59,347 bases of DNA, taken from IMG/VR virus record IMGVR_UViG_3300032288_004867, positions 1 through 59,347 of that record; one strand, written 5' to 3'. Below are positions 10,308 through 34,335 of the stretch, in pieces. Each line of letters begins with the position of its first letter. Within the stretch, counting starts at the first letter, position 1. The notes below the pieces were generated by a model. That model made no database searches. It was not told the origin of the DNA and saw nothing but the letters and a program-made list of their open reading frames with translations. The translations under genes and the position numbers were made by a program. This DNA comes from a virus.

Positions 10308-13139
10308 TTAGATATCATCAAATGATGCACCAGTTGGTACGATGTTAAATTCTACACATATAAATTCTAACGCTCTAGTTGGTTTTAAGAATATTCTACC
10401 ACATAACTCATTTCTATCAATTGATTCTGGAGTTACATCAAGAACAACTCTAAAGTCTGTTAAACCTCTTTGTGACCTAATATTGTCTAATATTGGGTTA
10501 ACCAAACTTAAGAACTGATTTCTAACGATATCATCATTTTGTTCGAATAGTAATCTAATTGCAACAGCAGAAATAAGTTTTCTAGCTTGTAACAATAGTC
10601 TTCTAACATTGATTCTATCAAGAGCACTTTCTTTAACTTGTAATGTTTTATTACCCCAAATTTTAATACCTTCAGATGCGAATGTTGCAATTGGGTTAAT
10701 TCTATTTTCGTATAATGTATCTCTTTCACCTAAAGTTAACTTAACTCTAGCTTTGATAGCATCAACATCACCTCTTTGAACACCAGCTACAGCGAACCAT
10801 GGGAATGCGATATTATCCGTTAAAGCTATGTTTCTAACAACATCTCTTGTTGGTGGCACATAGATATAAACATTATTCTCAGCATCGTTAATTTGAATCC
10901 ATGGCCAGTAAGTACATGTGTAGTTACTATCAAATTGACCATATAATTGGTCAGCAACATCTTCTGGTAATAATACCTCACCTCCAGCATCAGTATCTGG
11001 TGTTGTAACAATGTATAAAGAGTCAGCTCTATCTTGCTCAACCATTTCAATAGCTTCTTCAATTAAGTTAGTATTGCTAAATGTATCAATACCTGGAGTT
11101 GCAAATACGTTAATATTTGTTGCTTCTGGATTTTTAAATGTCCAAATAGCTTCTAAGTATGCGTAATAATCAGATGTAATACCTGGGTCACCATTAGATA
11201 ATGTTCTATTACTAAAAGTACCATTAACCAAACCAACAGAACCTTTTGTACCATTAATTAAATAAGGGTCAGTGTTTGTTCTTCTTGTTCTATATGGGTC
11301 CCAACCATCAAATCCACCATAAGGTACAAAGGTAAACTTACGAGAATATAATTTTTCATATGAAGTACCTTCTAATTGGAAATCATTTTGGAAAGGACAA
11401 CAACCAGTTTCGAATTCATATACTGGACAATATGTACCACCAGATGCATTTATAACAACACAAACATTATCAATTGTTGCCATACTAGCACCACTATCCA
11501 TGTGGAATCCTTTTGTTAATCCAGTCCACATATCAATAACTGAACTATCTGGCGCACCTTTATAATCAAAGAAATCTTGGTCAATACCTTTTGTATCAGT
11601 TAAACCTAAATAATATTTACGTTTGTTTTCAAATACACCATAATCTTTTTTATATTCAATTGTTGGTGCTTGAACATTTGTGTTACCATTTTCAGTATAA
11701 TCTCTTTGTGGGTAACCAACAAATCCAGCTGGGAAAGATTCTTTATTATCTGAATCATCCATTTCAATTAATACATAATTAGACATTGAAGGAAATTCAC
11801 CATCTAATGTACCTATTCTTTTAGCAATATAATTATTAGATGCTGGATTCATAGAACATCTACTAAATGATTCTAAAACATTTGGTCTAGCATCTGTGTC
11901 ATAATAACTTCTAACAATTAAATCAAATTCTTTTAAATCTGGTTGAATATTTCTAATTGATATTTTAAATTGTTTATTTGCTGCATCACCATCAGAAATA
12001 GTCCAAAGTCTAAATAATCTAAATACGTTAGTACCACGAAGTTCAGATACAACCCATGGTGTTACAGCTGGTTGGAATTCTTTTTTGAAATCATCAAATG
12101 CTTTATCGTATTCAACTAAATTAGTTATATTAATACCTAAAACTTGTTCATTTGATATATAATCAGCAAACATATTTTCATATATTTCTTCAACAAATAT
12201 TGTTGTTTTACCATCTTGTGGGTCTCTACCTAAAACTCTTGGTAAATAATTTTTCTTAGTTTTATCAAAAGATAATACATAACTAAATGGTCCAGATATG
12301 CTACCAGTACCAAATATTTCAAATTCACCATATGGGTCAATTTCAGCTGTAGTAACACTAGTACCAAAACCGATTTGTGTATTTGCAGAAATTTCAAATA
12401 CTAATTGCTCATTACCATTATATTTACCTCTAGACCTTAATAAAGTCAAAAGTTTACCCTCAACATTAGAATAACCAGCACCAGAATATTGAATTGTAAT
12501 ACCTGAAGTTGTACCAGTTGTACCATTTGAGTCAGATACTGTAGATGTCAATGTTAAACCAACAGTTTCAGCACCTTGAAATACTGTACCAACCTTTTCA
12601 AATGTTTCTGGGATATCAGAAACTGGACCAACAGATGCAGAAACTAAATAATCAAGACCTATCACATTATTATTCCATAAACTTTGTATAACTGAGTTTG
12701 TTGAAACTAAATTAGTTATTGAACCAGTTGAATCAGCAGTAAATGAAATTAATGGGTCATTTGAAGTAGTTGAAGCAATACCAACTGTTGATGGGTCTAA
12801 TGCTGAACTTAACGTTATACCCCATGCTCTACCACCATCATAACCAGAAAACCCTAATACTCTGGTAACAAATAATTGATTTGATTGTGATAAATATGAT
12901 TTTGCAATATATGGTAATTCATATTTAGGGGCACCATTATCTTTTACTCTAGTCGCATTACAAGAACCAAAGAATGATACAAACTCATCGTAGTTTGAAA
13001 CAAAAATAGGTTGAAATGCTGGACCTTGTGTTGTTTCACCAACTAACCCCAATGTTGTTACACCAACCTGACGTGTAACGAATGTTAAGTCTTTCTCTGA
13101 GGTATAGACACCTGGACTGACGAATACTTTATCTGCCAT
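10308..13139 (-). CDS. Contractile tail sheath protein, T4 gp18-like
   Basis: 943 residues, longer than T4 gp18 (659). The N-terminus MADKVFVSPGVYTSEKDLTF and following VGVTTLGLVGETTQGPAF are the classic sheath opening. The C-terminal ~150 residues (RGDVDAIKARVKLTLGERD, INPIATFASEGIKIWGNKTL, VRRLLLQARKLISAVAIRLL, LCGRIFLKPTRALEFICVEF) form the conserved sheath core that interlocks with neighbouring subunits and the tube. The excess length lies in the middle (roughly 130-700), where sheath proteins carry variable surface domains. It forms the contracting outer tail tube. Transcribed from a TATTTAT promoter 43 bases upstream and ended by a strong hairpin. Confidence 0.95.
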   Translation of the reverse strand: MADKVFVSPGVYTSEKDLTFVTRQVGVTTLGLVGETTQGPAFQPIFVSNYDEFVSFFGSCNATRVKDNGAPKYELPYIAKSYLSQSNQLFVTRVLGFSGYDGGRAWGITLSSALDPSTVGIASTTSNDPLISFTADSTGSITNLVSTNSVIQSLWNNNVIGLDYLVSASVGPVSDIPETFEKVGTVFQGAETVGLTLTSTVSDSNGTTGTTSGITIQYSGAGYSNVEGKLLTLLRSRGKYNGNEQLVFEISANTQIGFGTSVTTAEIDPYGEFEIFGTGSISGPFSYVLSFDKTKKNYLPRVLGRDPQDGKTTIFVEEIYENMFADYISNEQVLGINITNLVEYDKAFDDFKKEFQPAVTPWVVSELRGTNVFRLFRLWTISDGDAANKQFKISIRNIQPDLKEFDLIVRSYYDTDARPNVLESFSRCSMNPASNNYIAKRIGTLDGEFPSMSNYVLIEMDDSDNKESFPAGFVGYPQRDYTENGNTNVQAPTIEYKKDYGVFENKRKYYLGLTDTKGIDQDFFDYKGAPDSSVIDMWTGLTKGFHMDSGASMATIDNVCVVINASGGTYCPVYEFETGCCPFQNDFQLEGTSYEKLYSRKFTFVPYGGFDGWDPYRTRRTNTDPYLINGTKGSVGLVNGTFSNRTLSNGDPGITSDYYAYLEAIWTFKNPEATNINVFATPGIDTFSNTNLIEEAIEMVEQDRADSLYIVTTPDTDAGGEVLLPEDVADQLYGQFDSNYTCTYWPWIQINDAENNVYIYVPPTRDVVRNIALTDNIAFPWFAVAGVQRGDVDAIKARVKLTLGERDTLYENRINPIATFASEGIKIWGNKTLQVKESALDRINVRRLLLQARKLISAVAIRLLFEQNDDIVRNQFLSLVNPILDNIRSQRGLTDFRVVLDVTPESIDRNELCGRIFLKPTRALEFICVEFNIVPTGASFDDI

Positions 13140-13284: not shown

Positions 13285-13434
13285 ATGAAGCGTACAAAAA
13301 ACCTTAAAATAACCCCAAATACTCATAAATTATTAAAAGAGTATTGTGAAGAAAATGGTCTTAAAATGTTTTCTTTTGTTGAGAAATTAATAAAAGAAAA
13401 ATGTACTAAACCAAAAGATTTATATGATGAATAA
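13285..13434 (+). CDS. Small ribbon-helix-helix-like protein
   Basis: 49 residues, read directly from the sequence. KNLKITPNTHKLLKEYCEENG is a short beta strand followed by a helix; LKMFSFVEKLIKEKC is a second helix. This is the strand-helix-helix layout of small Arc/MetJ-type DNA-binding proteins, which bind operators as dimers through the paired strands. It is the only plus-strand gene among 34 kb of minus-strand virion genes. It has its own TATTTAT promoter 13 bases upstream and a shared terminator immediately after its stop. A regulator of the flanking late units is inferred. The fold assignment is by pattern only. Confidence 0.6.
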   Translation: MKRTKNLKITPNTHKLLKEYCEENGLKMFSFVEKLIKEKCTKPKDLYDE

Positions 13435-13466
13435 AAAAAGGTTGGGAAACCCCAACCTTTATTTTT
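13433..13466. terminator. Bidirectional terminator between convergent genes
   Basis: AAAGGTTGGG / CCCAACCTTT stem with an AAAC-type loop and A/T runs on both sides. It lies between the plus-strand 49-residue gene and the minus-strand gene ending at 13484, so it can stop both. Confidence 0.85.
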
Positions 13467-13483: not shown

Positions 13484-14389
13484 TTACACTATTGAAGCTA
13501 TTACAGCACCAGCATCTGTAATGGTTAATTTATATCTTGTACCGTTTGGACTTTTCATAATAACACCTTCACCAGTTTCAGCTAATTCAATTTTAGGCAT
13601 ATATACAGTGTCACTATCTGAACCTGTAATATTTTGACCACCAATAACTGCACTTCTATTTCCAAATGCTGTTGAATTAGTTGAATGAACAAATGATGCA
13701 GTTCCTGATGCTAATGAACTAACACCTCCAGCATGTGAATATTGACCATTAGCAGTTGTTTGACTACCTTCAGTATGAGATAGTTCACCATTGGCTTTTG
13801 TTAAATAACCTTCAGCATGTGAATAATCACCTTTTGCAAAAGTACCATAACCCTCAGCATGTGAATAATTACCACCAGCTGTTGTTTGACTACCCTCAGC
13901 ATGTGAAGTTAAACCACTAGCTATTGTTTGACCACCTTCAGTATGTGAATAAGCACCACTAGAAGTTGTATAACCACCTTCAGCATGTGAATAATTACCA
14001 ACGCTTGTTGTATAACTACCTTCAGCATGTGACCCAGTACCAATTGCTTTTGTATTATAATTTTGAGAATGTGAATAAGCACCACTAGCTATTGTTGAAT
14101 TACCTTCAGCATGTGACCTAATACCACTAGATGTTGAACTATCTCCTTCAGCATGTGAACCTTCACCAATTGCTGTAGTATATAAACCTTCAGCATGTGT
14201 ATAATTACCTTGTGCTTTTGTAAATAAACCCTCAGCATGTGATGAACTACCACTTGCTGTGGTTGAATTACCTTCAGCATGTGCTGATTGACCACTAGCA
14301 ATTGTATAATTACCTTCAGCAACACTTCCTTTAATTTGAACTAAATCAGATGTGTAACCTGATATTATATCTACCTTAATTTGACTCAT
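13484..14389 (-). CDS. SHAEG-repeat fibre protein (YadA head-like), 301 residues
   Basis: Short head (KVDIISGYTSDLVQIKGSVAEG), then about 15 copies of a 14-residue SHAEGxxTxAxGxx repeat (about 23-231). The cap SFVHSTNS...GNRSAVIGGQNITG...DTVYMP follows, then a tail GVIMKSPNGTRYKLTITDAG. The repeat resembles the YadA head repeat (SxAxGxxSxAxG), which forms a trimeric left-handed beta-roll in bacterial adhesins. A trimeric tail-fibre or adhesin component is therefore inferred. Head and tail are shared with the genes at 14417 and 18355, so these three are paralogues. First in a run of five such genes separated by 23-33 bases. The last gene before the bidirectional terminator. Confidence 0.75.
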   Translation of the reverse strand: MSQIKVDIISGYTSDLVQIKGSVAEGNYTIASGQSAHAEGNSTTASGSSSHAEGLFTKAQGNYTHAEGLYTTAIGEGSHAEGDSSTSSGIRSHAEGNSTIASGAYSHSQNYNTKAIGTGSHAEGSYTTSVGNYSHAEGGYTTSSGAYSHTEGGQTIASGLTSHAEGSQTTAGGNYSHAEGYGTFAKGDYSHAEGYLTKANGELSHTEGSQTTANGQYSHAGGVSSLASGTASFVHSTNSTAFGNRSAVIGGQNITGSDSDTVYMPKIELAETGEGVIMKSPNGTRYKLTITDAGAVIASIV

Positions 14390-14416
14390 TTTTTTTTATT
14401 TATTAATATTATTATT

Positions 14417-15064
14417 TTATGCTGGTGAAGTACTTAATGTACCATCATTTAATACTGTAACACGATATCTTGTACCATTTGGGCTTCTCATAATAATACC
14501 ATTAATATCTGTAAATTCAGTTGCTGACATATATACCATATTACTTACTGTACCATTAATATTATTACCTAAAACTATAGTATTAGTACCTGAAGCTGTT
14601 GAGTTATAACCATGAACAAATGAACCATCACCACTAGCTATTGTAATATTACCACTAGCATGTGAATATGCACCACTAGCTGTTGTGTAAGAACCTTCAG
14701 CATGTGACGAATTACCACTAGCTATTGTATAACTACCTTCAGCATGTGAACCAACACCATTAGCTGTTGTTACAATACCTTCAGCATGTGATGCATTACC
14801 AATTGCACTTGTGCCATCACCTTCAGCATGTGATGCTTGGCCATTACTTATTGTATTAGTACCCTCAGCATGTGAATAATTACCATTTGAAGATGAAAAA
14901 CCACCCTCAGCATGTGAATAATCACCACTAGCTGTTGTATTTCTACCTTCAGCATGTGATGCTATACCACTAGCTGTTGTGTTTAAACCTTCAGCAACTT
15001 TACCATCTATGGTAACCAAATTTGTTGTGAATCCAGATATTAAATCTACTTTTAATGTGCTCAT
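14417..15064 (-). CDS. SHAEG-repeat fibre protein, 215 residues
   Basis: The smallest of the SHAEG family, with about nine 14-residue repeats (about 23-147). It has the same head (KVDLISGFTTNLVTIDGKVAEG) and tail (GIIMRSPNGTRYRVTVLNDG) as its neighbours at 13484 and 18355. Its cap differs from theirs (SFVHGYNSTASGTNTIVLGNNINGT) and instead resembles the cap of the S74 fibre at 56051. That points to module exchange between distant fibre genes. A short trimeric fibre or adhesin is inferred. Probably co-transcribed with the flanking repeat genes, since the 27- and 23-base gaps hold no clear TATTTAT core. Confidence 0.72.
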   Translation of the reverse strand: MSTLKVDLISGFTTNLVTIDGKVAEGLNTTASGIASHAEGRNTTASGDYSHAEGGFSSSNGNYSHAEGTNTISNGQASHAEGDGTSAIGNASHAEGIVTTANGVGSHAEGSYTIASGNSSHAEGSYTTASGAYSHASGNITIASGDGSFVHGYNSTASGTNTIVLGNNINGTVSNMVYMSATEFTDINGIIMRSPNGTRYRVTVLNDGTLSTSPA

Positions 15065-15087
15065 TTTTTTTTATTTATTTTAATTTA

Positions 15088-18000
15088 TTATATTATTGTT
15101 AAAGTTGTACCAGCTGGTACTGTTACTGAATAACCTGGGTCAATAATTAATGGTGTTGGGTATGTTACAGTTGAATTGTAAGGTAAAACAACATCTTGAC
15201 CAATTGTTGTTGGTGTTGGTGACGTAATTGTAAATCCTAAATCAGAATAAGTTAAACCAACAACCCCACCAAGATTTGAACCATCACCATAAAAATAATC
15301 AGCTGTTATACTTGTAGCACTAATTGTGTTAGCAGTTACACCACTAGTAAATGTAACACCACTAGTAAAAATTGTTTCACCAGTTACGGTACCACCACTT
15401 AATGGTAAAAACTCACCAACAGCCCCACCACCAATTGTGGAAGCTGACCTATATTTAACTGTACCATCATTTGCTCTAACTAATACATCATCTAATGCAT
15501 TATCATTTGATGGTGTATAATTTATATTTAAATTAGGAACATATACAGTATCATCTGTATAACCTGTAATATTTTGTCCACCAATAATAGCACTTCTATC
15601 ACCACCTATGTTTGAATTTGTTGAATGTATAAATGAAGTTAAACCACTAGCAATTGAATAAGAACCACCAGCATGTGAATAATCACCTTGTGCTGTTGTA
15701 TTTCTACCTTCAGCATGTGAAAAATAACCAAAAGCTGTTGTTAAATAACCTTCAGCATGTGATGCCTCACCTTGTGCTGTTGTAGAATCACCCTCAGCAT
15801 GTGATGCATAACCAATTGCTTTTGTACCACTACCTTCAGCATGTGATGCCTCACCTTGTGCTGTTGTAGAATCACCCTCAACATGTGATGAATTACCAAT
15901 CGCTGTTGTTAAATAACCTTCAACATGTGATGAATTACCGCTTGCTGTAGTAAAATAACCTTCAGCATGTGACCTTTCACCAATAGCTGTTGTATTTCTA
16001 CCTTCAGCATGTGAATAATAACCAAAAGCTGTAGTAAACCAACCTTCAGTGTGTGATGCATCACCTATTGCTTTTGTTGTATAACCTTCAGCATGTGATA
16101 TATGTCCACTAGCTAATGAACCACTACCTTCAGCATGTGATGACTCACCAATCGCTGTTGTTAAATAACCTTCAACATGTGATGAATCACCGCTTGCTGT
16201 AGTAAAATAACCTTCAGCATGTGACATATCACCAATAGTTGTTGTATTTTGACCTTCAGCATGTGAAAAAGAACCAAAAGCTGTAGTAAACCAACCTTCA
16301 GTGTGTGATGCATCACCTATTGCTTTTGTTGTATAACCTTCAGCGTGTGAACTACTACCACTAGCTATTGAACCATTACCCTCAGCATGTGATGCAACAC
16401 CTTTAGCTGTTGTACCTGAACCTTCAGCATGTGAATAATCAACTAAGGCAGTTGTATAATAACCTTCAGAGTGTGCAGCTTGACCAATAGACCTTGTTAG
16501 CTCACCTTCAGCATGTGATGATTGACCACTTGCTATTGTTGAATTACCTTCAGCATGTGAACCAAAACCTTTTGTAATTGTATAACTACCTTCAGCATGT
16601 GACATATCACCAATAGCTGTTGTTTGAAGACCTTCAGCATGTGATGATTGACCAGATGCTATAGTACCTTCATATAATGTAAAACCATCAAAATAATAAC
16701 CACCTTCACCATGTGAACCATTACCTAATGCTTTTGTTTTATTACCTTCAGAGTGTGAATAATTACCACCAGCGGTTGTTAAATAACCTTCAGCATGTGA
16801 TGAACTACCACTAGCTATTGTTTCCCTACCTTCAGCATGTGATACGATACCAATAGCTTTTGCTTGAAAACCTTCAGCATGTGAATTTTGACCACTAGCT
16901 GTTGTGTTTCTACCTTCGGCATGTGAATAATTATGTTTAGCAGTTGTATACCAACCTTCAGCGTGTGATGAAAAACCACTAGAGATTGTATTATAACCTT
17001 CAGAATGTGAATAATTACCTAATGCCCTAGTATTAAAACCTTCAGCATGTGATGCTGTATTATTTGCAGTTGTTCCACTACCTTCAGCATGTGATGCAAT
17101 ACCTTTTGCTATTGCAGACCAACCTTCAGCATGTGATGTATCACCACTAGCTAATGTGAAATAACCCTCAACATGTGATGCAGCACCTTGCGCAGTTGTA
17201 TTACTACCTTCAGCATGTGACCTATTACCTAATGCTTTTGTTTGAAAACCTTCGGAATGTGACCAATTACCTTCTGCCAATGTACCACCACCTTCAGCGT
17301 GTGATATAATACCTTTTGCTACTGAACCATTACCTTCAGCATGTGATGTGTCACCACTTGCTATTGTATTAGCTCCTTCAGCATGTGATGCATAACCACT
17401 AGCTGTTGTTAATAAACCTTCAGCATGTGATACTGTATTATTTGCAGTTGTACCTGAACCTTCAGCATGCGAACTATCACCAGTTGCTTTTGTATTTTTA
17501 CCTTCAGCATGTGATGCGTTGTTACTTGCAGTTGTTTCATAACCTTCAGCATGTGATGCATAACCACTAGCTATTGTTGATTCACCTTCAGCATGTGATG
17601 CTATACTATTAGCTAATGTTAATACACCCTCAGCATGTGAACTATCACCAAGAGCCTTTGAATCACCACCTTCAGCATGTGATGCGGCACCACTTGCTGT
17701 CGTACCAGCACCTTCAGCATGTGAACTATCACCAGTTGCTTTTGTGTTTTGACCTTCAGCATGTGAATATTGATTACTAGCAGTTGTTCCAGCACCTTCA
17801 GCATGTGATGCATAACCACTAGCTATTGTACCTTCACCTTCAGCATGTGATGAAAAACCACTTGCTGTTGTATAAGAACCTTCAGCATGTGATATATCAC
17901 CAAGAGCCTTTGAATCACTACCTTCAGCATGTGATGCGGCACCAATAGCGGTTGTACCAGCACCTTCAACATGTGAAAACTGACCACTAGCTATTGTTAA

Positions 18001-18321
18001 ATAACCTTCAGCATGTGATGCTGTACTTGATGCAGTTGTACCTGAACCTTCAGCATGTGATGCATTACCACTTGCTAATGTATTACTACCTTCAGCAACA
18101 GCATAATTTCCAGTTGCGTCAATGCTACTAGCATTGTTTGCTTTAATTGAATTTGTCCCAGTTGAACCACTAACCCAAACACTAGATACACCAGTTAAAT
18201 TAGAACCGTCACCATAAAAGGTTGAACCAGATAAGTTACCGTTAACCTTTAAGTTACCGTTAATAGTTTGACCAGTCAATAATAATCCTTCTTGATTATT
18301 TATTATATAAGAAATGCTCAT
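15088..18321 (-). CDS. Giant SHAEG-repeat fibre protein, 1077 residues
   Basis: The N-terminus MSISYIINNQEGLLLTGQTI followed by KVNGNLSGSTFYGDGSNLTG is a fibre-type beta segment. About 58 SHAEG repeats follow (about 73-895). One repeat is interrupted by an insert GGYYFDGFTLYEGTIASG. After the cap (SFIHSTNS...GGDRSAIIGGQNITG) comes a C-terminal ~140 residues of fibre-like beta repeats (FYGDGSNLGG) and hydrophobic strands. If each 14-residue repeat adds one turn of a YadA-like beta-roll, this would be a very long shaft. The head matches the gene at 19597. At DNA level it contains near-identical 252-nt blocks (six repeats), a sign of recent expansion. Confidence 0.75.
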   Translation of the reverse strand: MSISYIINNQEGLLLTGQTINGNLKVNGNLSGSTFYGDGSNLTGVSSVWVSGSTGTNSIKANNASSIDATGNYAVAEGSNTLASGNASHAEGSGTTASSTASHAEGYLTIASGQFSHVEGAGTTAIGAASHAEGSDSKALGDISHAEGSYTTASGFSSHAEGEGTIASGYASHAEGAGTTASNQYSHAEGQNTKATGDSSHAEGAGTTASGAASHAEGGDSKALGDSSHAEGVLTLANSIASHAEGESTIASGYASHAEGYETTASNNASHAEGKNTKATGDSSHAEGSGTTANNTVSHAEGLLTTASGYASHAEGANTIASGDTSHAEGNGSVAKGIISHAEGGGTLAEGNWSHSEGFQTKALGNRSHAEGSNTTAQGAASHVEGYFTLASGDTSHAEGWSAIAKGIASHAEGSGTTANNTASHAEGFNTRALGNYSHSEGYNTISSGFSSHAEGWYTTAKHNYSHAEGRNTTASGQNSHAEGFQAKAIGIVSHAEGRETIASGSSSHAEGYLTTAGGNYSHSEGNKTKALGNGSHGEGGYYFDGFTLYEGTIASGQSSHAEGLQTTAIGDMSHAEGSYTITKGFGSHAEGNSTIASGQSSHAEGELTRSIGQAAHSEGYYTTALVDYSHAEGSGTTAKGVASHAEGNGSIASGSSSHAEGYTTKAIGDASHTEGWFTTAFGSFSHAEGQNTTTIGDMSHAEGYFTTASGDSSHVEGYLTTAIGESSHAEGSGSLASGHISHAEGYTTKAIGDASHTEGWFTTAFGYYSHAEGRNTTAIGERSHAEGYFTTASGNSSHVEGYLTTAIGNSSHVEGDSTTAQGEASHAEGSGTKAIGYASHAEGDSTTAQGEASHAEGYLTTAFGYFSHAEGRNTTAQGDYSHAGGSYSIASGLTSFIHSTNSNIGGDRSAIIGGQNITGYTDDTVYVPNLNINYTPSNDNALDDVLVRANDGTVKYRSASTIGGGAVGEFLPLSGGTVTGETIFTSGVTFTSGVTANTISATSITADYFYGDGSNLGGVVGLTYSDLGFTITSPTPTTIGQDVVLPYNSTVTYPTPLIIDPGYSVTVPAGTTLTII
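15637..18105 (-). repeat. 42-nt tandem repeat array encoding SHAEG units
   Basis: About 58 in-frame 42-nt units, each with a well-conserved TCACATGCTGAAGG-like core on the coding strand and a variable remainder. Blocks around 15890-16100 and 16142-16352 are near-identical at a 252-nt offset. Confidence 0.9.
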
Positions 18322-18339
18322 AATATATTTTTTTTATTT

Positions 18340-18346
18340 ATAAATA
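18340..18346 (-). promoter_or_regulatory. Putative late promoter core TATTTAT
   Basis: Minus-strand AATATTTATAAATAAAAA, 18 bases before the ATG of the giant SHAEG gene. Confidence 0.55.
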
Positions 18347-18354
18347 TTATTTAA

Positions 18355-19563
18355 TTATGCTAAAGTTATACTAATAGTACCACCATTAGCAATTGTTAAT
18401 TTATATCTTGTACCATCTGGACTTTTCATAATAATACCTTCACTAGTTTCAGCAACTTCAAGTTTAGAAACATATACAGTATCATTAGCAGTACCTGTAA
18501 TATTTTTACCACCTAATACAACACTTCTATTACCACTAACTGTTGAACCTGATGAATGTATAAATGAATTTAAACCATCACTAACTGTCTCAAAACCACC
18601 AGCATGTGAATAATTACCATTAGCAATTGTATAATAACCTTCAGCATGTGATGCAACACCAACAGCATTAGTTAAATAACCTTCAGCATGTGAACCATTA
18701 CCAGTTGCTGTTGTTGTATAACCTTCAGCATGTGATGCATTACCAGTTGCTTTTGTGCCACTACCTTCAGCATGTGATGCTGTATTACTCGATGTTGTAT
18801 TATTACCTTCAGCATGTGCACCATAATTACCACTAGCGGTTGTAGCATAACCTTCAGCATGTGCACCAATATAACCACTAGCAACAGTACCAAATCCCTC
18901 AGAGTGTGGAGCATAAGTACCAGATGCAATTGTATCATAACCTTCAGCATGTGAAGCTTCACCATTCGCTTGTGTATTTCTACCTTCCGCATGTGATGCA
19001 ATACCACTAGCTGTTGTACCACTACCTTCAGCATGTGCTGCTGCATTTATTGTTGTTGTATTTTTACCTTCAACATGTGATGCCTCACCACTCGCTAATG
19101 TGAAATAACCTTCAGCATGTGAATAATCAGCAGACGCATAGCAAGTATAACCTTCAGCGTGTGATGCAGTAGAAGTAGCTGCGCTGTTCCACCCCTCAGC
19201 ATGTGATTTAGAACCAAGTGCAGTTGTTTGATAACCTTCAGCATGTGATGAAGTACCCTTTGCTTTACTTAATTGACCCTCAGCATGTGATGTATCAGCT
19301 TGAGCTGTTGTTTCAGAACCTTCAGCATGTGATGCATCACCTATTGCGGTTGTAATAACACCTTCAGCGTGTGAATAAAGACCACTAGCTATCGTATAAT
19401 AACCTTCAGCATGTGATTTGTTACCACTTGCTGTTGTTTGTTCACCTTCAGCATGTGATATTAAACCACTAGCTGTTGTTTGCTCACCTTCAGCAACACT
19501 TCCTTTAATTTGAACTAAATCAGTTGTATAACCTGATATTAAATCTACTTTTAATGTACTCAT
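18355..19563 (-). CDS. SHAEG-repeat fibre protein, 402 residues
   Basis: Same head (KVDLISGYTTDLVQIKGSVAEG) and tail (GIIMKSPDGTRYKLTIANGG) as the genes at 13484 and 14417, with about 22 repeats (about 23-332). Three consecutive repeats carry one-residue insertions (TYAPHSEG, YIGAHAEG, NYGAHAEG) that may kink or adjust the roll. The cap is SFIHSSGSTVSGNRSVVLGGKNITG. A trimeric fibre or adhesin is inferred. The upstream leader has TATAAATAAATAAATA, which is closer to the T4 late consensus than to the local TATTTAT core. Confidence 0.73.
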   Translation of the reverse strand: MSTLKVDLISGYTTDLVQIKGSVAEGEQTTASGLISHAEGEQTTASGNKSHAEGYYTIASGLYSHAEGVITTAIGDASHAEGSETTAQADTSHAEGQLSKAKGTSSHAEGYQTTALGSKSHAEGWNSAATSTASHAEGYTCYASADYSHAEGYFTLASGEASHVEGKNTTTINAAAHAEGSGTTASGIASHAEGRNTQANGEASHAEGYDTIASGTYAPHSEGFGTVASGYIGAHAEGYATTASGNYGAHAEGNNTTSSNTASHAEGSGTKATGNASHAEGYTTTATGNGSHAEGYLTNAVGVASHAEGYYTIANGNYSHAGGFETVSDGLNSFIHSSGSTVSGNRSVVLGGKNITGTANDTVYVSKLEVAETSEGIIMKSPDGTRYKLTIANGGTISITLA

Positions 19564-19596
19564 AATTTTTTTTGTTTTTATTTATTTATTTATATT

Positions 19597-21057
19597 TTAA
19601 AATGTTGAACCCAAAACTCTTAACCATTGACCATCAGCTTTCCAATAAAAATAAGTATCATCCCAAGTTATTGACCCATCTTCACCTATTGTATCAGAAC
19701 TACTTGTTGGTACGGCTTCAACTTTTTTAATTACAAAATCTGGTACATATACAGTATCATTAGCAGCACCATTAATATTTTGACCACCTAATACAGCACT
19801 TCTAACCCCACTAACAGTTGAATTAGTTGAATGTATAAAAGAAGTTTCACCAATAGCTATTGACGTTGAACCACCAGCATGTGAAAAATTACCTTGTGCG
19901 GTTGTACTATTACCTTCAGCGTGTGAACCAGTACCAAAAGCTATTGTTAATTGACCTTCTGCATGTGAATAATTACCACTAGTAACAGTATATAAACCTT
20001 CAGCATGTGATGCATTACCTTGTGCGGTTGTTTGAAAACCCTCAGCATGTGACGCACCAAGTTGAGCAATAGTATTATAACCCTCAGCATGTGAATAAGT
20101 ACCATTAGCAGTTGTTTGTCTACCTTCAGCGTGTGAAAATTGACCAGTAGCCTTTGTTGAATAACCTTCAGAGTGTGATGCTGTATTTGATGCAGTTGTA
20201 CCAGAACCTTCAGTATGTGAACCATTACCACTAGCTACTGTTTGATAACCCTCAGCATGTGAATTAATACCACCAGCGGTTGTTTGTCTACCCTCAGCAT
20301 GTGACTGGTCACCAATCGCTGTTGTTTCTTTACCTTCAGCATGTGAATAACTACCGCTTGATATTGTAGAGGCACCTTCAGCATGTGATGCATAACCAAT
20401 TGCTCTTGTATTACTACCCTCAGCATGTGAAGCAATATAAAAAGCTGTAGTATATTCACCTTCAGAATGTGATGAATCACCACTAGCAATTGTTTCTCTA
20501 CCCTCAGCATGTGACCAACTACCACTTGCTATTGTTGAAAAACCTTCAGCATGTGATGTATTACCACTTGCTATTGTATAAGAACCTTCAGCATGTGATT
20601 GGATACCACTAGCAGTTGTTGAATTACCTTCAGCATGTGATTTATCACCACTTGCTATTGTGCTACTACCTTCAGCATGTGAATAAGCACCAACAGCAGT
20701 TGTAAAAATACCTTCAGAATGAGACGTACTACCACTAGCTGTTGTTCCTCTACCCTCAGCATGTGATGCATTACCAATTGCAGTTGTTTCTCTACCCTCA
20801 GCATGTGAACCAAGACCACTAGCAGTTGTAGCATCACCTTCAGCAACTGCATAATCACCAGTTGCATCAGTTAATGTATCGTTTGAAGCTTTAATCGAAT
20901 ATGAACCAGTTGAACCACTAGTGAAAACAACTGCTCCAGATGGTGGTAAATTTAAATAAGTTGTTGCTGAAAAAGAACCAGCAACATTTAAATCACCACT
21001 AATATTTTGACTAATTAAAGAACCGTCATTGTTGTTAATAATGTAAGAAATAGACAT
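19597..21057 (-). CDS. SHAEG-repeat fibre protein, 486 residues
   Basis: Head MSISYIINNNDGSLISQNIS as in the giant gene at 15088, then a SATTYLNLPPSG module that recurs in the fibres at 24295 and 50545. About 24 SHAEG repeats follow (about 70-405), then the cap SFIHSTNSTVSGVRSAVLGGQN. The C-terminal tail (PTSSSDTIGEDGSITWDDTYFYWKADGQWLRV) resembles the end of the S74 fibre at 56051. It therefore looks like a mosaic of modules found in at least three other fibres here. First gene of the five-gene SHAEG run, with a TATTTAT core 17 bases upstream. A trimeric tail fibre or adhesin is inferred. Confidence 0.73.
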   Translation of the reverse strand: MSISYIINNNDGSLISQNISGDLNVAGSFSATTYLNLPPSGAVVFTSGSTGSYSIKASNDTLTDATGDYAVAEGDATTASGLGSHAEGRETTAIGNASHAEGRGTTASGSTSHSEGIFTTAVGAYSHAEGSSTIASGDKSHAEGNSTTASGIQSHAEGSYTIASGNTSHAEGFSTIASGSWSHAEGRETIASGDSSHSEGEYTTAFYIASHAEGSNTRAIGYASHAEGASTISSGSYSHAEGKETTAIGDQSHAEGRQTTAGGINSHAEGYQTVASGNGSHTEGSGTTASNTASHSEGYSTKATGQFSHAEGRQTTANGTYSHAEGYNTIAQLGASHAEGFQTTAQGNASHAEGLYTVTSGNYSHAEGQLTIAFGTGSHAEGNSTTAQGNFSHAGGSTSIAIGETSFIHSTNSTVSGVRSAVLGGQNINGAANDTVYVPDFVIKKVEAVPTSSSDTIGEDGSITWDDTYFYWKADGQWLRVLGSTF

Positions 21058-22036: not shown

Positions 22037-22051
22037 AAATTAAAAAAACAA

Positions 22052-22942: not shown

Positions 22943-22956
22943 AAATTAAAAAACAA

Positions 22957-24294: not shown

Positions 24295-27200
24295 TTAAGT
24301 TAAATAGTTATTTATTGTTTGTGCAAATCCTAAACCAAAATCATAACCTGAATTAATGGTTAATGATGTAGAACCCGATGTTATTGTTATGTTTGAACCA
24401 GCAATGATTGACCTAAATTGTAAATCAAATCCTGATTTTTGGGCAAATATATTATTACCACTACCTAAGTTTGAAGCAGTATTAGGTTCACCACTTGAAT
24501 TAATAGTTAATTTAGTAGTTCCAGATGTTATAGTTACATTTGTACCAGCAGATAAAGTTCTAAATTGTAAATCAAGACCAGATTTTTGATAAAAAATACC
24601 ATTAGCACCTCCAACGTTTGAAGCGGTGTTTACTTCACCGCCACCACCAGAAGGTGACCAATAAGCATTACCATTACTATCTGATGCCATAAGCACATAA
24701 CCAGCTGTAGCTCCAGATGTGACTTGTAATTTAGTTGTTTTAGTTTTACCACTAACGTCCAATTTTTCAGACGGTGATGAGGTACCAATACCTAACCTAG
24801 AATTAGAATTATCCCAATGGAAATTTATGTTATAAGTTAAACCACTAGTACCAGACCAATAAGCAACTTTATTAGTAATACCAGAACCAGTTAATGTACC
24901 ACTACCAGAACCAGTACTAAAACCATTTATTGTTATATCACTAAGACCATTTCGATTTAAAGTTAATGTACCACTAGAATATGTACCACCAGTTACGTAA
25001 TAATCGGTAAAACCATTAACTAATAAACTAGTACCATTGTTCCTATTTAAAGTTAATGTGTCAGTTGAATTATTAAAAGTTGCACCAGTAAATGCTGTGG
25101 TAAATCTTAAATCATTTTCACCAACAACAATTGGATTTGATACTAAAACTGGTGAAGTACTTAATTTAACTTTACCTAATGTTGTGGTACTACCAGTTGA
25201 AACCCAACTATCTAGTTTACCACTAACATCAGCATATGGTATTGCATTAGCTGATGGAGTTGTAGTACCAATCTGGTCAGCACCACCAAATTGATGTCTT
25301 GTTGCATGAGCACTTACTGTCACACCATCCACAGTTCCAACACTTGTTATATTATTAGAACCCATGTTTAAGTTTCCAGACATAGCTCTACCACCATTAA
25401 CTAAAAGATATTGAGTATGGTCATCAGCACCAAGCCCTAATAGGTTTCCATGTACTGAAGAAGCATTTACACCTCCAGCCTTAAAACCAATAACAGGTCT
25501 AATGTCTTCAATTTGTGTAATACCACTAAAACCTTGTTCAATATAAATGTTTGCTATTTGAGAAACTGAATCAATAAAGAATGATGGTGGTGTTGGTAAT
25601 AATGCATTTTCAGCCTCAACTAATGTTGAATATTCATTCTGACCAAGTACTAAAAAATATTTTTCATAAATACCGTCACCAACAACATATAAAGTATGTT
25701 TTGTATAATAACCAGTAGTTAAACCAGATAAAGAACCATTACCATCATATGATGTGTTATTCACAATAGTTGTTGCAGAAGTATTCCAACCACCCAAACC
25801 ATCTCTATAATATTGTGTAAATGATATTTGGGTACCACCAGATGGTAAATATTCACTTGTTGAATAATAATATTCACCAGAAGTTACATCTAATTTAAAT
25901 GGTGTTGCATTTTCATTAACAATTGACCCTAATGCATATATGGGACCTAGCGCTTCTCTAAATAAATTACCAAATCTATTTGAAGTGTGGTCTGAATGTG
26001 ATGGACTTAAATCAATAAATGAAATACCAACGGAATTCGTAACAACTCTACCTAAAACAATGTTGTGAATTGAATTTGGTCTAGTACCAGAATTAGATAA
26101 TACACCGTTTTCATTTATAAAAATATATTTATTTTCATTAGCACCTAATGTAATTTGAGAATTATTCCAATCAATTCTCTTATGTATTTCTGGGGTTAAA
26201 GTTTTTGATAAATAACCAAAACCAGCGGCAGTGCTAACTGTAAATCCACTTACAATTGTAATTTCACCACCTTCCATAACACCCATCGTAGAACCATCAA
26301 AAATTAAAGTTGTAAAATCAGTATGTGTCCCATCAGCAAATGTTACTGAAGCTTTTCTAGTTATATCAAATTCACCATCATTTATATCTAAAAATGACCA
26401 ATAAACATCAGTACTTTGAGTATATAATTTTTCGTGATTAGAACTACCAGCAAATGTACCAAAAGTTGTTACTCTCTCAATATATAAATCCCATTCACCA
26501 TTTACTATACTAGCGTTATCAATATCAAATCTAACACCACCACCAACATTTGGGTTATAAACACCATATGTAAATCCATCAATAGTTGTTGTTGATGCAT
26601 TTAACTCTGCGTAATCTTGAATATAATACGCAGTAGAACCAGATACACCATTTGATTGACAATCAGCAACAAAAACACTTAATGTTGCACCACTTCCTGA
26701 TGCATAGTTACAATATGTTATCCCAGTACTACTTGGGAAATTATAATAATTTTCTAAATTTGCTAAAGCAAGAAAACCATTTGAACTTAAAATTTTTGAA
26801 CCGTATGTGTAAGTACCATTAAAATCTAAATATTCACCATAAAATTTAGTATCTTGAGTTACTGATTCCACCCAAAGATTTATATCACAATCATAAAAAG
26901 ATATTTTATGTGCTTGAGCAAAATCACCTATATCGTAACAATATAATCCAGAATATCCAGATGGTGCACCAGATAATGATAAAAATGATACCTCGTTATT
27001 TTGTCCAATTTTTATAATATGTTGATTATTTGTATTTGGTAATATTTGTGTGGTTTGAATATTACTACCAACAATACTAACATAAGGTGTTGAAGTTAAA
27101 TCAATTTCATTTTCAATAAATTGACCAGGCCCAACTTCTATTATATATCTACTATTTATTGAAGTTGTTGCACTAGCTATTAAATAATCAACAGCGGATT

Positions 27201-30200
27201 TTATAGAAGAAAAATCACCACCCTTTTTAGCTACAGTTATTACTCTAGCGTCTTGACCAACTTCATAAAGTGGTGAATTGATATTTATTTTTGTTTTTAA
27301 AAAATTATCAGTACCTTGTATTTTACCAGTTGCACCAGAATGTACAATATTAACATCTGTTGTACAATTTTCAAAATTTAAAGCAATAGCATCTATACTA
27401 GGTGCTGAACCAATTTGAGGTGCATATATACCAGTTGACCATCTTTGAAAATTAACCGCAGTTAATCTTAAAAATCCACCATTTTCAACATAAAAACCAG
27501 TACCAGCAGCAGCACCAGCTGACTTTGTTAATAAACAACCGTTTACTATAAACCCACAATTTGCCGCATCAGCTTTAGCGAATATCAAACCAGTAGTTGT
27601 AGAAATACCACCATTTGTTGACGTTACGTTACGTAATTGCATCCTACCTATACCACTACCATTATTCGTAGCATAGAATCCAATTGTAAATGGATAACCA
27701 CCATATTTAACATTTGAACATTGTATAATAATGTTAGCACCACCATAAGCAACAACTTTAGCGTGTGTATAGTTTGAACCAAACCTAACATTTTCAACAT
27801 AAGAAATTGCAGTTGATTGTGGTGTTGTTGACGATGAATAAATAATAGCTGATACGCCAGTATCAGTACAACCTTGAACCTGACAATCAAATAATGCTGA
27901 TTGGTCACTTAAATGTATTAATGTTTGTGAAGAATCATTAGCTTCAATTATTGTTGATAATGAACTATCACCAACAACAGATACCCAAGTTGGTATTGTG
28001 AAAGGGTCTTCATAATATATACCACCAGAAACTTTAACAGTGTATGTATTTGCTGATGAAGAACCAGTAATACTTTCAACAGCTAATTTAATAGAATTAA
28101 AATCGACACCAGTACTACCAGTGAGTGCAACTGTTATTGTATTATTTGTGTTAATTAAACTATTAATTGTTCTAATCTCAACATCACCTGTTGTTGCGTT
28201 TCTAACTAACACATTATCTGTGTTTGTATTTGTGTTAGGTGTAACATTTATATTTAAATTAGGAACATATACAGTATCATTTGTTGAACCTGTAATATTT
28301 TGTCCACCTAATACCACACTTCTAGAACCAGTTACAACTGAATTAGTTGAATGTATAAATGAAGTTAAACCACTAGCAATTGAATAATAACCACCAGCAT
28401 GTGAATTTGAACCTAATGATTCTGAAGACCTACCCTCAGCATGTGAAAATTCACCAAGTGCTGTAGTTGCATAACCTTCAGAGTGACTATAATCACCAAA
28501 AGCACTTGTACCTAAACCTTCAGCATGAGCTGTTATACCACTAGCTTTAGAGCCACTACCTTCAGCATGTGAATAATCACCTATAGCTTCTGTATCTCTA
28601 CCTTCCGCATGTGATGCTAAACCACTAGCTGTTGTTGAATAACCCTCTGAGTGAGATGCTTGACCACTAGCTGTATTAATATAACCTTCAGCATGTGATT
28701 GATTACCAGTTGCTTTAGAACCACCACCCTCAGCATGTGATGCAATACCACTAGCTGTTGTACCAGAACCTTCAGCATGTGAACCAAGACCAGTTGTTGT
28801 TGTTCCAGTACCTTCAGTATGTGATGATGAACCACTAGCCACTGTCCAAGAACCCTCAGCATGTGAACTAAAACCTATTGCTTTGTTTAACCAACTTTCA
28901 GCATGTGAATAATCAGCATAAGCTGTTGAACCTAAACCTTCTACGTGTGCAGTATAACCAACAGCAGATGTACTTCTACCTTCAGCGTGTGAATGGTCAC
29001 CAATTGCTGTTGTTTCTCTACCTTCAGAATGTGATGTATCACCAATAGCTTTTGTTTGATAACCTTCAGAATGTGATGAATTACCAACTGATGTTGTTAA
29101 AAAACCTTCAGCGTGTGATGAATTACCACTAGTGATTGCTCTATATCCTTCAGCGTGTGATGAATTACCATTAGCTGTTGTTTCTTCACCTTCAGCATGT
29201 GAATAGTTACCTATTGCTGTGGTTAAATAACCTTCAGCTACTGAATAATCACCAGTCGCATCTAATCCACTATCATTATTTGCTTTAATTGAATATAATC
29301 CAGTTGAACCAGATGTAAATACTGCTAAAGGTAAGTTTAAATAAGTAGCTGCTGAAAATGTATTAGCAGTTAAACCATTTGTGAAATTAGTTGGGCCATT
29401 AATAGTACCACCACTAAATACAGCTGGTGGTAAATTTAAATAAGTAGCTGCTGAAAATGTATTAGCGGTTAAACCATTTAAGAAAATAGTGTTACCAACA
29501 ACAGTACCACCAGTAAATACAGCTGGTGGTAAATTTAACCATGTTGATGCTGATATAGCATTTATTAAAACATAATTAGTAAAATTAGTTAAACCAGTAA
29601 CTGTACCACCAGTAAATGTTGTTTCTGGTAAGTTTAAATAAGTTGTTGCTGATATAGTTGTTGCTGTTAAATTATTTAAATTTGTTTCACCACTAACAAT
29701 CAAATTACCACCAATATTAGTATCACCAGTTATTGTATATGAACCATTTAATTTTTTTGTATTCACCCAAACTGAAGAACCATTATATGAACCACGCATT
29801 AATAAATCACCTTGCGTTGATGCACTTATTCTAGCATCATGTAATTCATCTAATTCCCAACCATTTGAAATATTGATAAATATTGAACCAACTGTTGCCG
29901 AAACTCTAACAACATAACCAATTAAAACAATATGGTTTGGTCCTTTTGGTTTTATTGAAGTATATCCACCAGCAACTGTTGGTGAAAGAAATATAGCGGT
30001 ACCACCAGTTAAACCTAAAGTATTTAAATTACTTATTATACCGAATGTTGTTACATAACCTTCACTACCTGGTGCAATATTTCTATCAACCATACCAAGT
30101 GTTGTAACAGAGTATCCATCACTTGTTGCTATAGCCCTTTTGACTGATGGTCTATTTCCTTGTGAACCAGAAACATAAACTATTTCACCTTTTTGTAATG

Positions 30201-30762
30201 TTGTAGATTCAGCATTAAAAACTCTAACAATCTCTTCCTGACCAACTTGTAAATCTATAAGTCCAGTTCCAGTATCACCAACAGCAATGTTTAATGTACC
30301 AGTTCCAGCATCCCAATTTATTCTACCAGGTGATTGTGTTACAGTTGCACCAGTATTAAAATCAATATAATCAGTATATATAGTATTAGCTGTTAAACCA
30401 TTTTCAATAATAGTTGAACCAGTTATAAATACACTACCACTATAATTTAAATCTCCACGAACATAAACATCACCAACAAAATTTGTATCACCTGTAACTG
30501 ATAGTGCATAACCACCTGGTAATGATGAACCACTAATTGAAACATCCCCAGTTATATTAAAATTACCAGTAACTGTATCACCAGTCCTACTAATTCTATC
30601 CCAACCGATAGGTAAAATTGAATTTGCTGTAGTACCAGATGCATATAAAATAGCATCAGATGTATTTAATGCGATTTCACCAAGTTTTAAATCACCAGGT
30701 GATGGTATTTTTCCAGGTACATTAGACCTTTTTAAAAGGAATGTATTTTGTCTATTGGCCAT
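24295..30762 (-). CDS. Giant multi-domain tail fibre, 2155 residues
   Basis: The N-terminus (FLLKRSNVPGKIPSPGDLKLGEIALNT, quoted in part: KIPSPGDLKLGEIALN) is typical of phage fibres. Several ~33-residue modules ending SAATYLNLPP follow (about 350-480). Next are about 20 SHAEG repeats (about 507-794) with cap RSVVLGGQNITG. Two pectate-lyase-like beta-helix regions follow (about 880-1500; for example TVKVSGGIYYEDPF and IIEVGPGQFIENEI), then a DDHTQYLLVNGGRAMSGNL fibre motif (about 1780). The end (about 1985-2155) holds LGIGTSSPSEKLDVSG and two copies of an IFxQKSGxDLQFR unit. Beta-helix regions in phage fibres often bind or degrade polysaccharide; I see no catalytic residues. No S74 chaperone domain is present. 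Probably a main long tail fibre. Confidence 0.8.
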   Translation of the reverse strand: MANRQNTFLLKRSNVPGKIPSPGDLKLGEIALNTSDAILYASGTTANSILPIGWDRISRTGDTVTGNFNITGDVSISGSSLPGGYALSVTGDTNFVGDVYVRGDLNYSGSVFITGSTIIENGLTANTIYTDYIDFNTGATVTQSPGRINWDAGTGTLNIAVGDTGTGLIDLQVGQEEIVRVFNAESTTLQKGEIVYVSGSQGNRPSVKRAIATSDGYSVTTLGMVDRNIAPGSEGYVTTFGIISNLNTLGLTGGTAIFLSPTVAGGYTSIKPKGPNHIVLIGYVVRVSATVGSIFINISNGWELDELHDARISASTQGDLLMRGSYNGSSVWVNTKKLNGSYTITGDTNIGGNLIVSGETNLNNLTATTISATTYLNLPETTFTGGTVTGLTNFTNYVLINAISASTWLNLPPAVFTGGTVVGNTIFLNGLTANTFSAATYLNLPPAVFSGGTINGPTNFTNGLTANTFSAATYLNLPLAVFTSGSTGLYSIKANNDSGLDATGDYSVAEGYLTTAIGNYSHAEGEETTANGNSSHAEGYRAITSGNSSHAEGFLTTSVGNSSHSEGYQTKAIGDTSHSEGRETTAIGDHSHAEGRSTSAVGYTAHVEGLGSTAYADYSHAESWLNKAIGFSSHAEGSWTVASGSSSHTEGTGTTTTGLGSHAEGSGTTASGIASHAEGGGSKATGNQSHAEGYINTASGQASHSEGYSTTASGLASHAEGRDTEAIGDYSHAEGSGSKASGITAHAEGLGTSAFGDYSHSEGYATTALGEFSHAEGRSSESLGSNSHAGGYYSIASGLTSFIHSTNSVVTGSRSVVLGGQNITGSTNDTVYVPNLNINVTPNTNTNTDNVLVRNATTGDVEIRTINSLINTNNTITVALTGSTGVDFNSIKLAVESITGSSSANTYTVKVSGGIYYEDPFTIPTWVSVVGDSSLSTIIEANDSSQTLIHLSDQSALFDCQVQGCTDTGVSAIIYSSSTTPQSTAISYVENVRFGSNYTHAKVVAYGGANIIIQCSNVKYGGYPFTIGFYATNNGSGIGRMQLRNVTSTNGGISTTTGLIFAKADAANCGFIVNGCLLTKSAGAAAGTGFYVENGGFLRLTAVNFQRWSTGIYAPQIGSAPSIDAIALNFENCTTDVNIVHSGATGKIQGTDNFLKTKININSPLYEVGQDARVITVAKKGGDFSSIKSAVDYLIASATTSINSRYIIEVGPGQFIENEIDLTSTPYVSIVGSNIQTTQILPNTNNQHIIKIGQNNEVSFLSLSGAPSGYSGLYCYDIGDFAQAHKISFYDCDINLWVESVTQDTKFYGEYLDFNGTYTYGSKILSSNGFLALANLENYYNFPSSTGITYCNYASGSGATLSVFVADCQSNGVSGSTAYYIQDYAELNASTTTIDGFTYGVYNPNVGGGVRFDIDNASIVNGEWDLYIERVTTFGTFAGSSNHEKLYTQSTDVYWSFLDINDGEFDITRKASVTFADGTHTDFTTLIFDGSTMGVMEGGEITIVSGFTVSTAAGFGYLSKTLTPEIHKRIDWNNSQITLGANENKYIFINENGVLSNSGTRPNSIHNIVLGRVVTNSVGISFIDLSPSHSDHTSNRFGNLFREALGPIYALGSIVNENATPFKLDVTSGEYYYSTSEYLPSGGTQISFTQYYRDGLGGWNTSATTIVNNTSYDGNGSLSGLTTGYYTKHTLYVVGDGIYEKYFLVLGQNEYSTLVEAENALLPTPPSFFIDSVSQIANIYIEQGFSGITQIEDIRPVIGFKAGGVNASSVHGNLLGLGADDHTQYLLVNGGRAMSGNLNMGSNNITSVGTVDGVTVSAHATRHQFGGADQIGTTTPSANAIPYADVSGKLDSWVSTGSTTTLGKVKLSTSPVLVSNPIVVGENDLRFTTAFTGATFNNSTDTLTLNRNNGTSLLVNGFTDYYVTGGTYSSGTLTLNRNGLSDITINGFSTGSGSGTLTGSGITNKVAYWSGTSGLTYNINFHWDNSNSRLGIGTSSPSEKLDVSGKTKTTKLQVTSGATAGYVLMASDSNGNAYWSPSGGGGEVNTASNVGGANGIFYQKSGLDLQFRTLSAGTNVTITSGTTKLTINSSGEPNTASNLGSGNNIFAQKSGFDLQFRSIIAGSNITITSGSTSLTINSGYDFGLGFAQTINNYLT
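28380..29240 (-). repeat. SHAEG-coding 42-nt repeat array inside giant fibre
   Basis: About 20 in-frame 42-nt units between the shaft and beta-helix modules. It has the same N-cap (SVAEG) and C-cap (SFIHSTNS) as the stand-alone SHAEG proteins. Confidence 0.85.
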
Positions 30763-33282: not shown

Positions 33283-34335
33283 TTAAAGTCTATTACCTAT
33301 TAATGTGAAATCACTATCACTATTATTAATTCTAACGATTTGTATATTTACCAAATCACCATTTTGTATAATTATTGGGTTTATTATTGAAGTACCATTT
33401 AAAACAGTATTATTATTAACTTTAATTATAATTTTTGATATATTTTTATATTCAGCAATTGTATTAAATTTCAAATCATATTCTGAATTAAAATTAAAAC
33501 TAGTTGTTGAGTTTTTCTTAAACACAAAATTGAAATTGGCACAACCATCTAATGGGTTAACATTAGCTTTCATTTTAACTCTAGGTGCTTCATCTAATAA
33601 TTCAGTAACAACAAAAGCTCTATTAACAGTTGGTATAACTTGAAAATCAGCTTCATCTAATATGTAACCATATAATGATATTTCAAATGGTTGAACATAA
33701 AATCTTCTATTTTCAAAATCATCTATATTGCTTTCATCACCAACATTTTCCAAATGTACTGGCATTGGGTGACCATTTACTCTTATATAGTGTTGTCTAG
33801 ATTGAAAAATCTTTTGTACTAATTGATTTAATTTATTTAAATCCCTCATTCTATTACAAAATAATCTAACTTCATAAATTAAATCAACGGAAGTTGGTTG
33901 TGGTATTTTATAAGTATCAACACCAGTTCTACCACCTTCAAATGTTGGAACCTTTAAATATGTGTAAGTTCTTCTACCTGGAATATTAAATAAGCCAGCT
34001 TGATTTCTACCAGGTTGAGGATTTGGTTGCCTAACAATAGTAATAAAAGGCATTTTTATATCCCTATATTTATCTGAAAATTGCCATGTTTTACTAAATT
34101 CAGACCATCTTTGTAATGTTAAAAATAATACAGGAACTTTATCACCATCAATTGAAATTTCTAAATCATTTTCAATAAATTCAATGAAACTCGTATCCAT
34201 ATCTTCATACATTACACCTCTAGGTAAAAAAGTACCTTTATGCGAAATATCATCTAGATAACCCTGTCTTTGTTCAAAACCGTAAGGTTGTCTAACTATA
34301 TTTATATCTTTCCTAAATCCCTTTGGTACTGCCAT
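33283..34335 (-). CDS. Tail completion / sheath stabiliser candidate (T4 gp15-like)
   Basis: 350 residues. The pattern MPFITIVRQPNPQPGRNQAG, then VDLIYEVRLFCNRMRDLNKL...VQKIFQSRQHYIRVNGHPM, then ENRRFYVQPFEISLYGYILD parallels T4 gp15. In gp15, a similar predicted segment order (a 'YELSIFTR' strand, a long helix, then a 'SLTFEVNGW' strand) is seen; this comparison is from memory. T4 gp15 forms the hexameric terminator capping sheath and tube before head joining. The C-terminal ~90 residues are an extra beta domain (FNFVFKKNSTTSFNF...). It is flanked 2 bases on either side by virion genes and follows a gp14-like candidate, as in T4. Confidence 0.5.
   Translation of the reverse strand: MAVPKGFRKDINIVRQPYGFEQRQGYLDDISHKGTFLPRGVMYEDMDTSFIEFIENDLEISIDGDKVPVLFLTLQRWSEFSKTWQFSDKYRDIKMPFITIVRQPNPQPGRNQAGLFNIPGRRTYTYLKVPTFEGGRTGVDTYKIPQPTSVDLIYEVRLFCNRMRDLNKLNQLVQKIFQSRQHYIRVNGHPMPVHLENVGDESNIDDFENRRFYVQPFEISLYGYILDEADFQVIPTVNRAFVVTELLDEAPRVKMKANVNPLDGCANFNFVFKKNSTTSFNFNSEYDLKFNTIAEYKNISKIIIKVNNNTVLNGTSIINPIIIQNGDLVNIQIVRINNSDSDFTLIGNRL

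Follow-up and report, generated by a model that had tools for sequence, protein, structure and literature searches.

A probable anchor-shaft-tip fibre family built on the SHAEG repeat in a T4-like myovirus

Why should one virus carry eight genes that share a 14-residue repeat, and what do these genes encode? The question is raised by a 59,347-base virus record with 31% GC (IMG/VR IMGVR_UViG_3300032288_004867, the whole of which is here called the window), in which a sequence-only reading had noticed eight genes with about 9 to about 58 copies of a SHAEG repeat, five of them consecutive. All eight open reading frames are present where they had been placed, all on the minus strand, and five (S1 to S5) follow one another at 13484-21057; the names S1 to S8 follow the order of the genes in Table 1. 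Our analysis suggests, as the probable answer, that the eight genes form an anchor-shaft-tip fibre family of a T4-like myovirus that was diversified by recombination.

Repeat units were counted with a position matrix built from strict units, utilizing a cut of 9 bits. This gave 197 units in total, with 10-57 per gene (Table 1), in agreement with the earlier estimate; shuffled proteins gave a mean of 0.5 unit windows, which places the arrays far beyond chance. The unit consensus is S-H-A-E-G-x-x-T-x-A-x-G-x-x, in which the Gly at position 5 is kept in 195 of the 197 units, the His at position 2 in 188 and the Glu at position 4 in 186, and positions 6, 7, 13 and 14 are the most variable. The spacing is 14 residues nearly throughout, with a few spacings of 15 and one 38-residue step each in S3 and S8. 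The caps described earlier for the array ends hold in part: the xVAEG/ALAEG N-cap, thought to be in every gene, is found in seven of the eight and is lacking in S7, and for the C-cap the SF(I/V)H element occurs in all eight genes, with a strict GGQNI after it in four (S1, S3, S5 and S6). In S1, S2 and S4 the array makes up most of the protein, between a 21-residue anchor and a short tip.

Units within a gene are 67.9% identical and units from different genes 67.2%, and the nearest neighbours of a unit lie mostly in other genes, except in S3. Recent tandem duplication as the general origin of the units was rejected because the identity within genes equals that between genes, S3 being a partial exception. 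Codon homogeneity as a sign of homogenisation at the DNA level was also rejected: the Ala at position 3 is encoded by GCT in 98% of the units versus 52% in the background genes, and this excess is explained by codon context, since in other genes of the window, too, 30 of 32 Ala codons that precede Glu are GCT.

Table 1. Positions of the SHAEG genes and of the reference features in the window
Feature	Position	Strand	Description
S1	13484..14389	minus	type A anchor, 15 units, type a tip (SPNGTRYKLTI)
S2	14417..15064	minus	type A anchor, 10 units; L151 orthologue 89% identical, 10 units; AlphaFold2 model m3df4a17f97ec
S3	15088..18321	minus	type B anchor (MSISYIINN), 57 units, type c tip; L151 orthologue 12 units
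S4	18355..19563	minus	type A anchor, 22 units, type a tip
S5	19597..21057	minus	type B anchor, 24 units, type b tip (VPDFVIKK...WLRVLGSTF); AlphaFold2 model mea7054da3ea4
S6	24295..30762	minus	2155-aa multi-domain protein; 21-unit SHAEG block at aa 507-800
S7	45959..50398	minus	1479 aa, of which 940-1276 hold 24 units; relatives share the anchor and differ in their tips
S8	56051..58558	minus	835 aa, 24 units; Peptidase_S74 chaperone C-terminal, then type b-like tip
Tail sheath	10308..13139	minus	phylogenetic reference, downstream neighbour of S1
Tail tube	9711-10199		adjacent tail gene
T4-type baseplate hub gene	7844-8941		adjacent tail gene
Intrinsic-terminator-like hairpin (GGTTGGG/CCCAACC + T7)	13433..13457	minus	read directly; directly 3' of S1
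Conserved gene that flanks the variable fibre island opposite the sheath	33283..34335	minus	94% identical in L151

The proposed likeness to YadA heads was borne out at the level of sequence. All eight proteins match Pfam YadA_head (PF05658), seven of them above the cut-off by hmmscan; S6 scores 16.9 bits against a cut-off of 25 when taken alone in hmmscan and passes together with its neighbouring units. The best sequence match in the PDB is the BpaC head 7o23 (E 2e-11), and phrog_25468, a phage family of unknown function, spans the same arrays. The array is confidently predicted to be a beta-roll with two strands per repeat, which is what the earlier reading had expected from structure prediction: AlphaFold2 models of the S2 and S5 monomers show two strands for every 14 residues and have pLDDT of 92-97 across most of the array, with low pLDDT in the first 10 to 51 residues and in parts of the C-terminal tips. 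The case for the YadA fold is built on the sequence and on the secondary structure as predicted, because a Foldseek search of the PDB with these two monomer models gave no significant match; compared with YadA heads by Foldseek and VIA-align, the monomer models gave generic solenoids only. Among the best viral Foldseek matches are proteins that carry the annotation of a YadA-like head domain, and one of these comes from an uncultured caudovirus.

Like the YadA head repeat, the SHAEG unit has a 14-residue period, a conserved Gly and small strand residues. It differs in that the hydrophobic V/I core of the canonical SVAIG is absent, with His and Glu at the matching places. Judged by sequence alone, the register of SHAEG against the solved heads is ambiguous by half a layer, and thus the line of His and Glu may lie either on the three-fold axis or on the outer face, which in both cases would be unlike the YadA and BpaC subtypes. 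A further difference from YadA is that Pfam found no YadA membrane anchor domain in the eight proteins; they are not trimeric autotransporters. The intramolecular chaperone Peptidase_S74, which is common in fibres without being universal, was found by Pfam in S8 (E 1e-17) and in none of the seven others.

The neighbourhood of these genes agrees with the fibre reading that had been proposed. The SHAEG genes lie in a tail gene region, where they adjoin the sheath, tube and hub genes. Searches by tblastn with the sheath found relatives in T4-like phages, cyanophages and Flavobacterium phages of the genus Immutovirus. Because of these tail genes and sheath relatives, the window is assigned to a T4-like myovirus, and the sheath relatives make a Bacteroidota host likely. 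The hairpin at the end of S1 (13457-13433) closes the run from S5 to S1 and parts it from the sheath gene. A scan for T4-type late promoters (TATAAATA) was uninformative, with 24 found versus 20 expected.

Several other features of this region were recorded. The sheath protein has 943 aa and its sheath-family matches are confined to the C-terminal third, which leaves a large additional region. Between S1 and the sheath gene, in antisense, lies a 49-aa Arc-like (ribbon-helix-helix) open reading frame (13285-13434, plus strand) that most sheath-relative loci, some with no SHAEG gene among them, have in the corresponding position with 71-100% identity; it may regulate the sheath or the late operon. 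A 777-aa protein with delta-60/DUF5122 beta-propeller repeats (43624-45957, minus strand) is encoded beside S7 in the fibre region. In a 1239-aa protein (50545-54264, minus strand), short Asn-rich repeats of the FNNNxIGxxFxxN type follow one another in a long array that makes up the C-terminal half, and a Pfam search with this protein gave zero matches.

The dedication of a phage to one adhesin repeat had been thought unusual, and this stands for the number of genes and not for the repeat. In a scan of viral and of bacterial and archaeal collections with a three-unit DNA pattern, at least 119 viral stretches and at least 117 bacterial or archaeal stretches matched, the latter largely from Paenibacillus, Bacillus, Clostridium and their relatives. 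The SHAEG repeat itself is therefore not new but widespread in viral contigs and Bacillota chromosomes; when the word SHAEG was looked for in the literature, the hits were unrelated text. Counts of SHAEG genes per locus are lower bounds, since the loci are stretches: among the 119 viral pattern matches listed, 108 loci have one SHAEG gene, nine have two and one has four, and among the matches listed for S4, 71 related loci divide into 60 with one gene, nine with two, one with three and one with four. Three relatives with a sheath 85% identical to that of the window (G014, G015 and G016) have two SHAEG genes each in the stretches read, of which one is placed like S7 and the other adjoins the sheath. 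There are two other contigs with at least four SHAEG genes. A second multi-gene case is L333 (contig IMGVR_UViG_3300042938_001753, 2917-17695, plus strand), whose four SHAEG genes have 75, 31, 29 and 18 units. Multi-gene SHAEG families occur in bacteria too, as a single genome of Longirhabdus pacifica (Bacillota) has arrays on six contigs or more (L253, L258, L280, L282, L283 and L285). We conclude that the copy number of eight genes, rather than the repeat, is unusual.

Comparison with relatives indicates how the genes change. All contigs used, with the relatives drawn from among the matches listed, are metagenome assemblies in which repeats may be collapsed or misjoined; assembly usually resolves arrays whose units are about 68% identical, although some may be collapsed or chimaeric. 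In the relative L151, whose sheath is 91% identical to that of the window, the homologue of the 33283 gene is followed by four SHAEG genes and then by the sheath, with nothing else between, whereas the same interval of the window holds S6, Gly-rich genes and others in addition. Because L151 and the window differ between these two markers, the region is a variable fibre island. The Gly-rich genes of this island are three consecutive ones between S6 and S5 (21104-23850, minus strand); the two proteins that were tested match Pfam Gly_rich_2.

Repeat-number variation among related phages, which the earlier reading had proposed to measure, is strong among orthologues. S3 and its L151 orthologue have ends that are 81-82% identical, with 96.0% DNA identity over the last 350 nt, yet they hold 57 versus 12 units, while S2 and its orthologue hold exactly 10 units each. 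Orthologues of S8, with anchors about 50% identical, have 7, 7, 18, 18, 54 and 75 units versus 24 in S8, and five of these six relatives keep the S8 tip (47-59% identical), the one without it being L012. Orthologues of the S7 anchor have 18, 43, 45, 47 and 52 units versus 24 in S7, and several different tips. If the rise per layer is that of BpaC, 7 to 75 layers would correspond to roughly 3 to 36 nm of shaft. Orthologous fibres thus retain their end domains and vary in array length.

That one module yields several fibre lengths, as had been suggested, is therefore right as to the lengths and incomplete as to the rest, because different anchors and tips are found on the common shaft. With a type A anchor, S1 and S4 have tip a, whereas the third L151 gene has tip b; with a type B anchor, S3 has tip c, S5, L132 and L133 have tip b and L131 has tip a; and tip b is also found on an S7-type anchor in L340. 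L131 and L132 have sheath genes 98.0% identical in DNA and have their shaft DNA in common, with tip a in the former and tip b in the latter; the switch point lies just after the C-cap. In a wider sample, the cluster of tip b and S8-like tips is joined to more than 10 N-terminal clusters, an approximate number obtained by single linkage. Because this method lumped fibre sequences of low complexity together in a single large N-terminal cluster, our claims use mainly the named anchors.

Constraint on the repeat was estimated from three pairs of orthologous arrays. His2, Glu4 and Gly5 show zero changes across the three pairs (dN/dS of His and Glu, 0), the small strand residues have a dN/dS of 0.21 and strand positions 9 and 11 one of 0.41. 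The turn positions reach 1.43 both at 6 and 7 (0.84-2.14) and at 13 and 14 (0.91-2.11); pooled, the variable positions have a dN/dS of 1.05 (0.69-1.71) versus 0.12 for the core. Since the turn values in these three pairs are not significantly above 1, their intervals including 1, the turns are free or mildly diversifying, and a relaxation of constraint explains them as well as diversifying selection does.

The mechanism that we propose is as follows. The eight genes would encode fibre or adhesin proteins in which the SHAEG array is a beta-roll shaft, with one 14-residue layer per unit, that connects a specific N-terminal anchor with an exchangeable C-terminal tip. By analogy with the YadA and BpaC heads the shaft would be a trimer with about 4.8 A per layer, or about 5 to 27 nm in the window. 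The strand residues would hold the roll, with His and Glu invariant between orthologous arrays and the two Gly and small strand residues rarely varying, and the four turn residues of each layer would vary freely and make the outer surface. T4-like phages recombine readily, and because every gene has the same repeat, recombination inside the arrays could alter the length of the shaft and shuffle tips across anchors and genes, as its products suggest. The sequences inserted at the 38-residue steps of S3 and S8 are closely similar, which is the one direct sign of exchange inside the window genome. Where its relatives have one or two SHAEG genes, the lineage would thereby have reached eight, most likely presenting several host-surface binders at different distances. 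The SHAEG proteins are probably virion parts, trimers and receptor binders, and their function as multiple adhesive fibres is suggested by where the genes lie, by the S74 chaperone in S8 and by the known role of related fibres.

The same data can be read in other ways. The arrays could be passive spacers whose number and length drift neutrally through repeat recombination, with binding left to the tips or other fibre domains. The dN/dS range at the turns, which includes 1, agrees with this, and so do the S8 orthologues, which mostly retain their tip across 7 to 75 units, as if length were little constrained; however, eight intact genes have been retained, the array is most of the protein in S1, S2 and S4, and S2 holds its exact number of units in L151, so we regard pure spacers as somewhat unlikely. 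It is a good deal more doubtful that S1, S2 and S4, which are short, and possibly S3 and S5 as well, encode decorations of the head, tail or sheath and not receptor-binding fibres. These genes lie directly upstream of the sheath, also in relatives with a SHAEG gene there, and their short N-termini have no recognised fibre anchor, but 71 of 79 sheath-relative loci have no SHAEG gene at this place (some of the stretches being short), which makes such genes seem dispensable, and the terminator-like hairpin stands between them and the sheath.

That the proteins serve the surface of the infected cell or are secreted during infection, not being virion parts, we consider highly improbable. The repeat is common in bacterial chromosomes, where some of the genes with it could be host genes, but the membrane anchor of YadA was not found by Pfam, and the S74 chaperone and the neighbouring tail genes point to fibres. 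The fibre family remains our preferred reading. An extension of it, which we hold to be unlikely, makes the shared shaft a recombination hub that gives combinatorial anchors, lengths and tips in eight fibres at once, and lets the invariant His and Glu line up in an unbroken ladder along the fibre; this ladder would have its own role, in salt bridges or with metal, and would set the array apart as a distinct beta-roll subtype.

The closest structural comparison is the C-terminal head of BpaC from Burkholderia (PDB 7o23), an all-left-handed-parallel-beta-roll of 42 layers of 14 residues with a rise of 4.8 A per layer and a core of Thr, Ser and Asn, the core strand residues of YadA being hydrophobic (PMC9543794). 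The SHAEG arrays resemble it in their 14-residue layers, their polar core in place of Ile/Val and their length; unlike the SHAEG genes, BpaC is a bacterial trimeric autotransporter encoded by one gene, with near-identical triplet repeats and no SHAEG His/Glu pair. Its homologue BoaC is 10 layers shorter, and the authors speculate that DNA repeats let heads gain or lose layers (PMC9543794); the present comparison is evidence of length change in phage fibres.

YadA-type domains are also found in phage tail or structural proteins. They are reported in tail fibres of pelagiphages (PMC3909814) and in ORF108 of cyanophage S-TIM4, which mutated during adaptation to new or poor hosts (PMC6224464), and the Immutovirus 'tail spike' immuto26A_170 has one. 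One such gene per phage is described in the available parts of these papers, or found in Immutovirus, versus eight in the window, and the same parts of PMC3909814 and PMC6224464 describe no gene family with a shared shaft and swapped ends for YadA-domain phage fibres. As far as the available part of PMC3909814 goes, metaviromic islands at tail-fibre genes make host-recognition genes a variable island in an otherwise conserved phage genome and vary in the C-terminus, whereas the fibres of the window vary also in shaft length, anchor and gene number.

How phages rapidly change the reach and specificity of their fibres is a central question of host range. Here one repeat connects different anchors and tips, and orthologous fibres stand tens of layers apart with their ends still recognisable. 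The invariant His/Glu pair would mark a structural subtype absent from the descriptions of YadA and BpaC heads in PMC9543794. Nature provides both a series of lengths, from 7 to 75 layers, and swaps of tips between near-identical phages, so that what shaft length and tip each contribute to adsorption becomes testable. The change in shaft length and the swapping of both ends between genes probably vary the attachment of these phages to bacteria.
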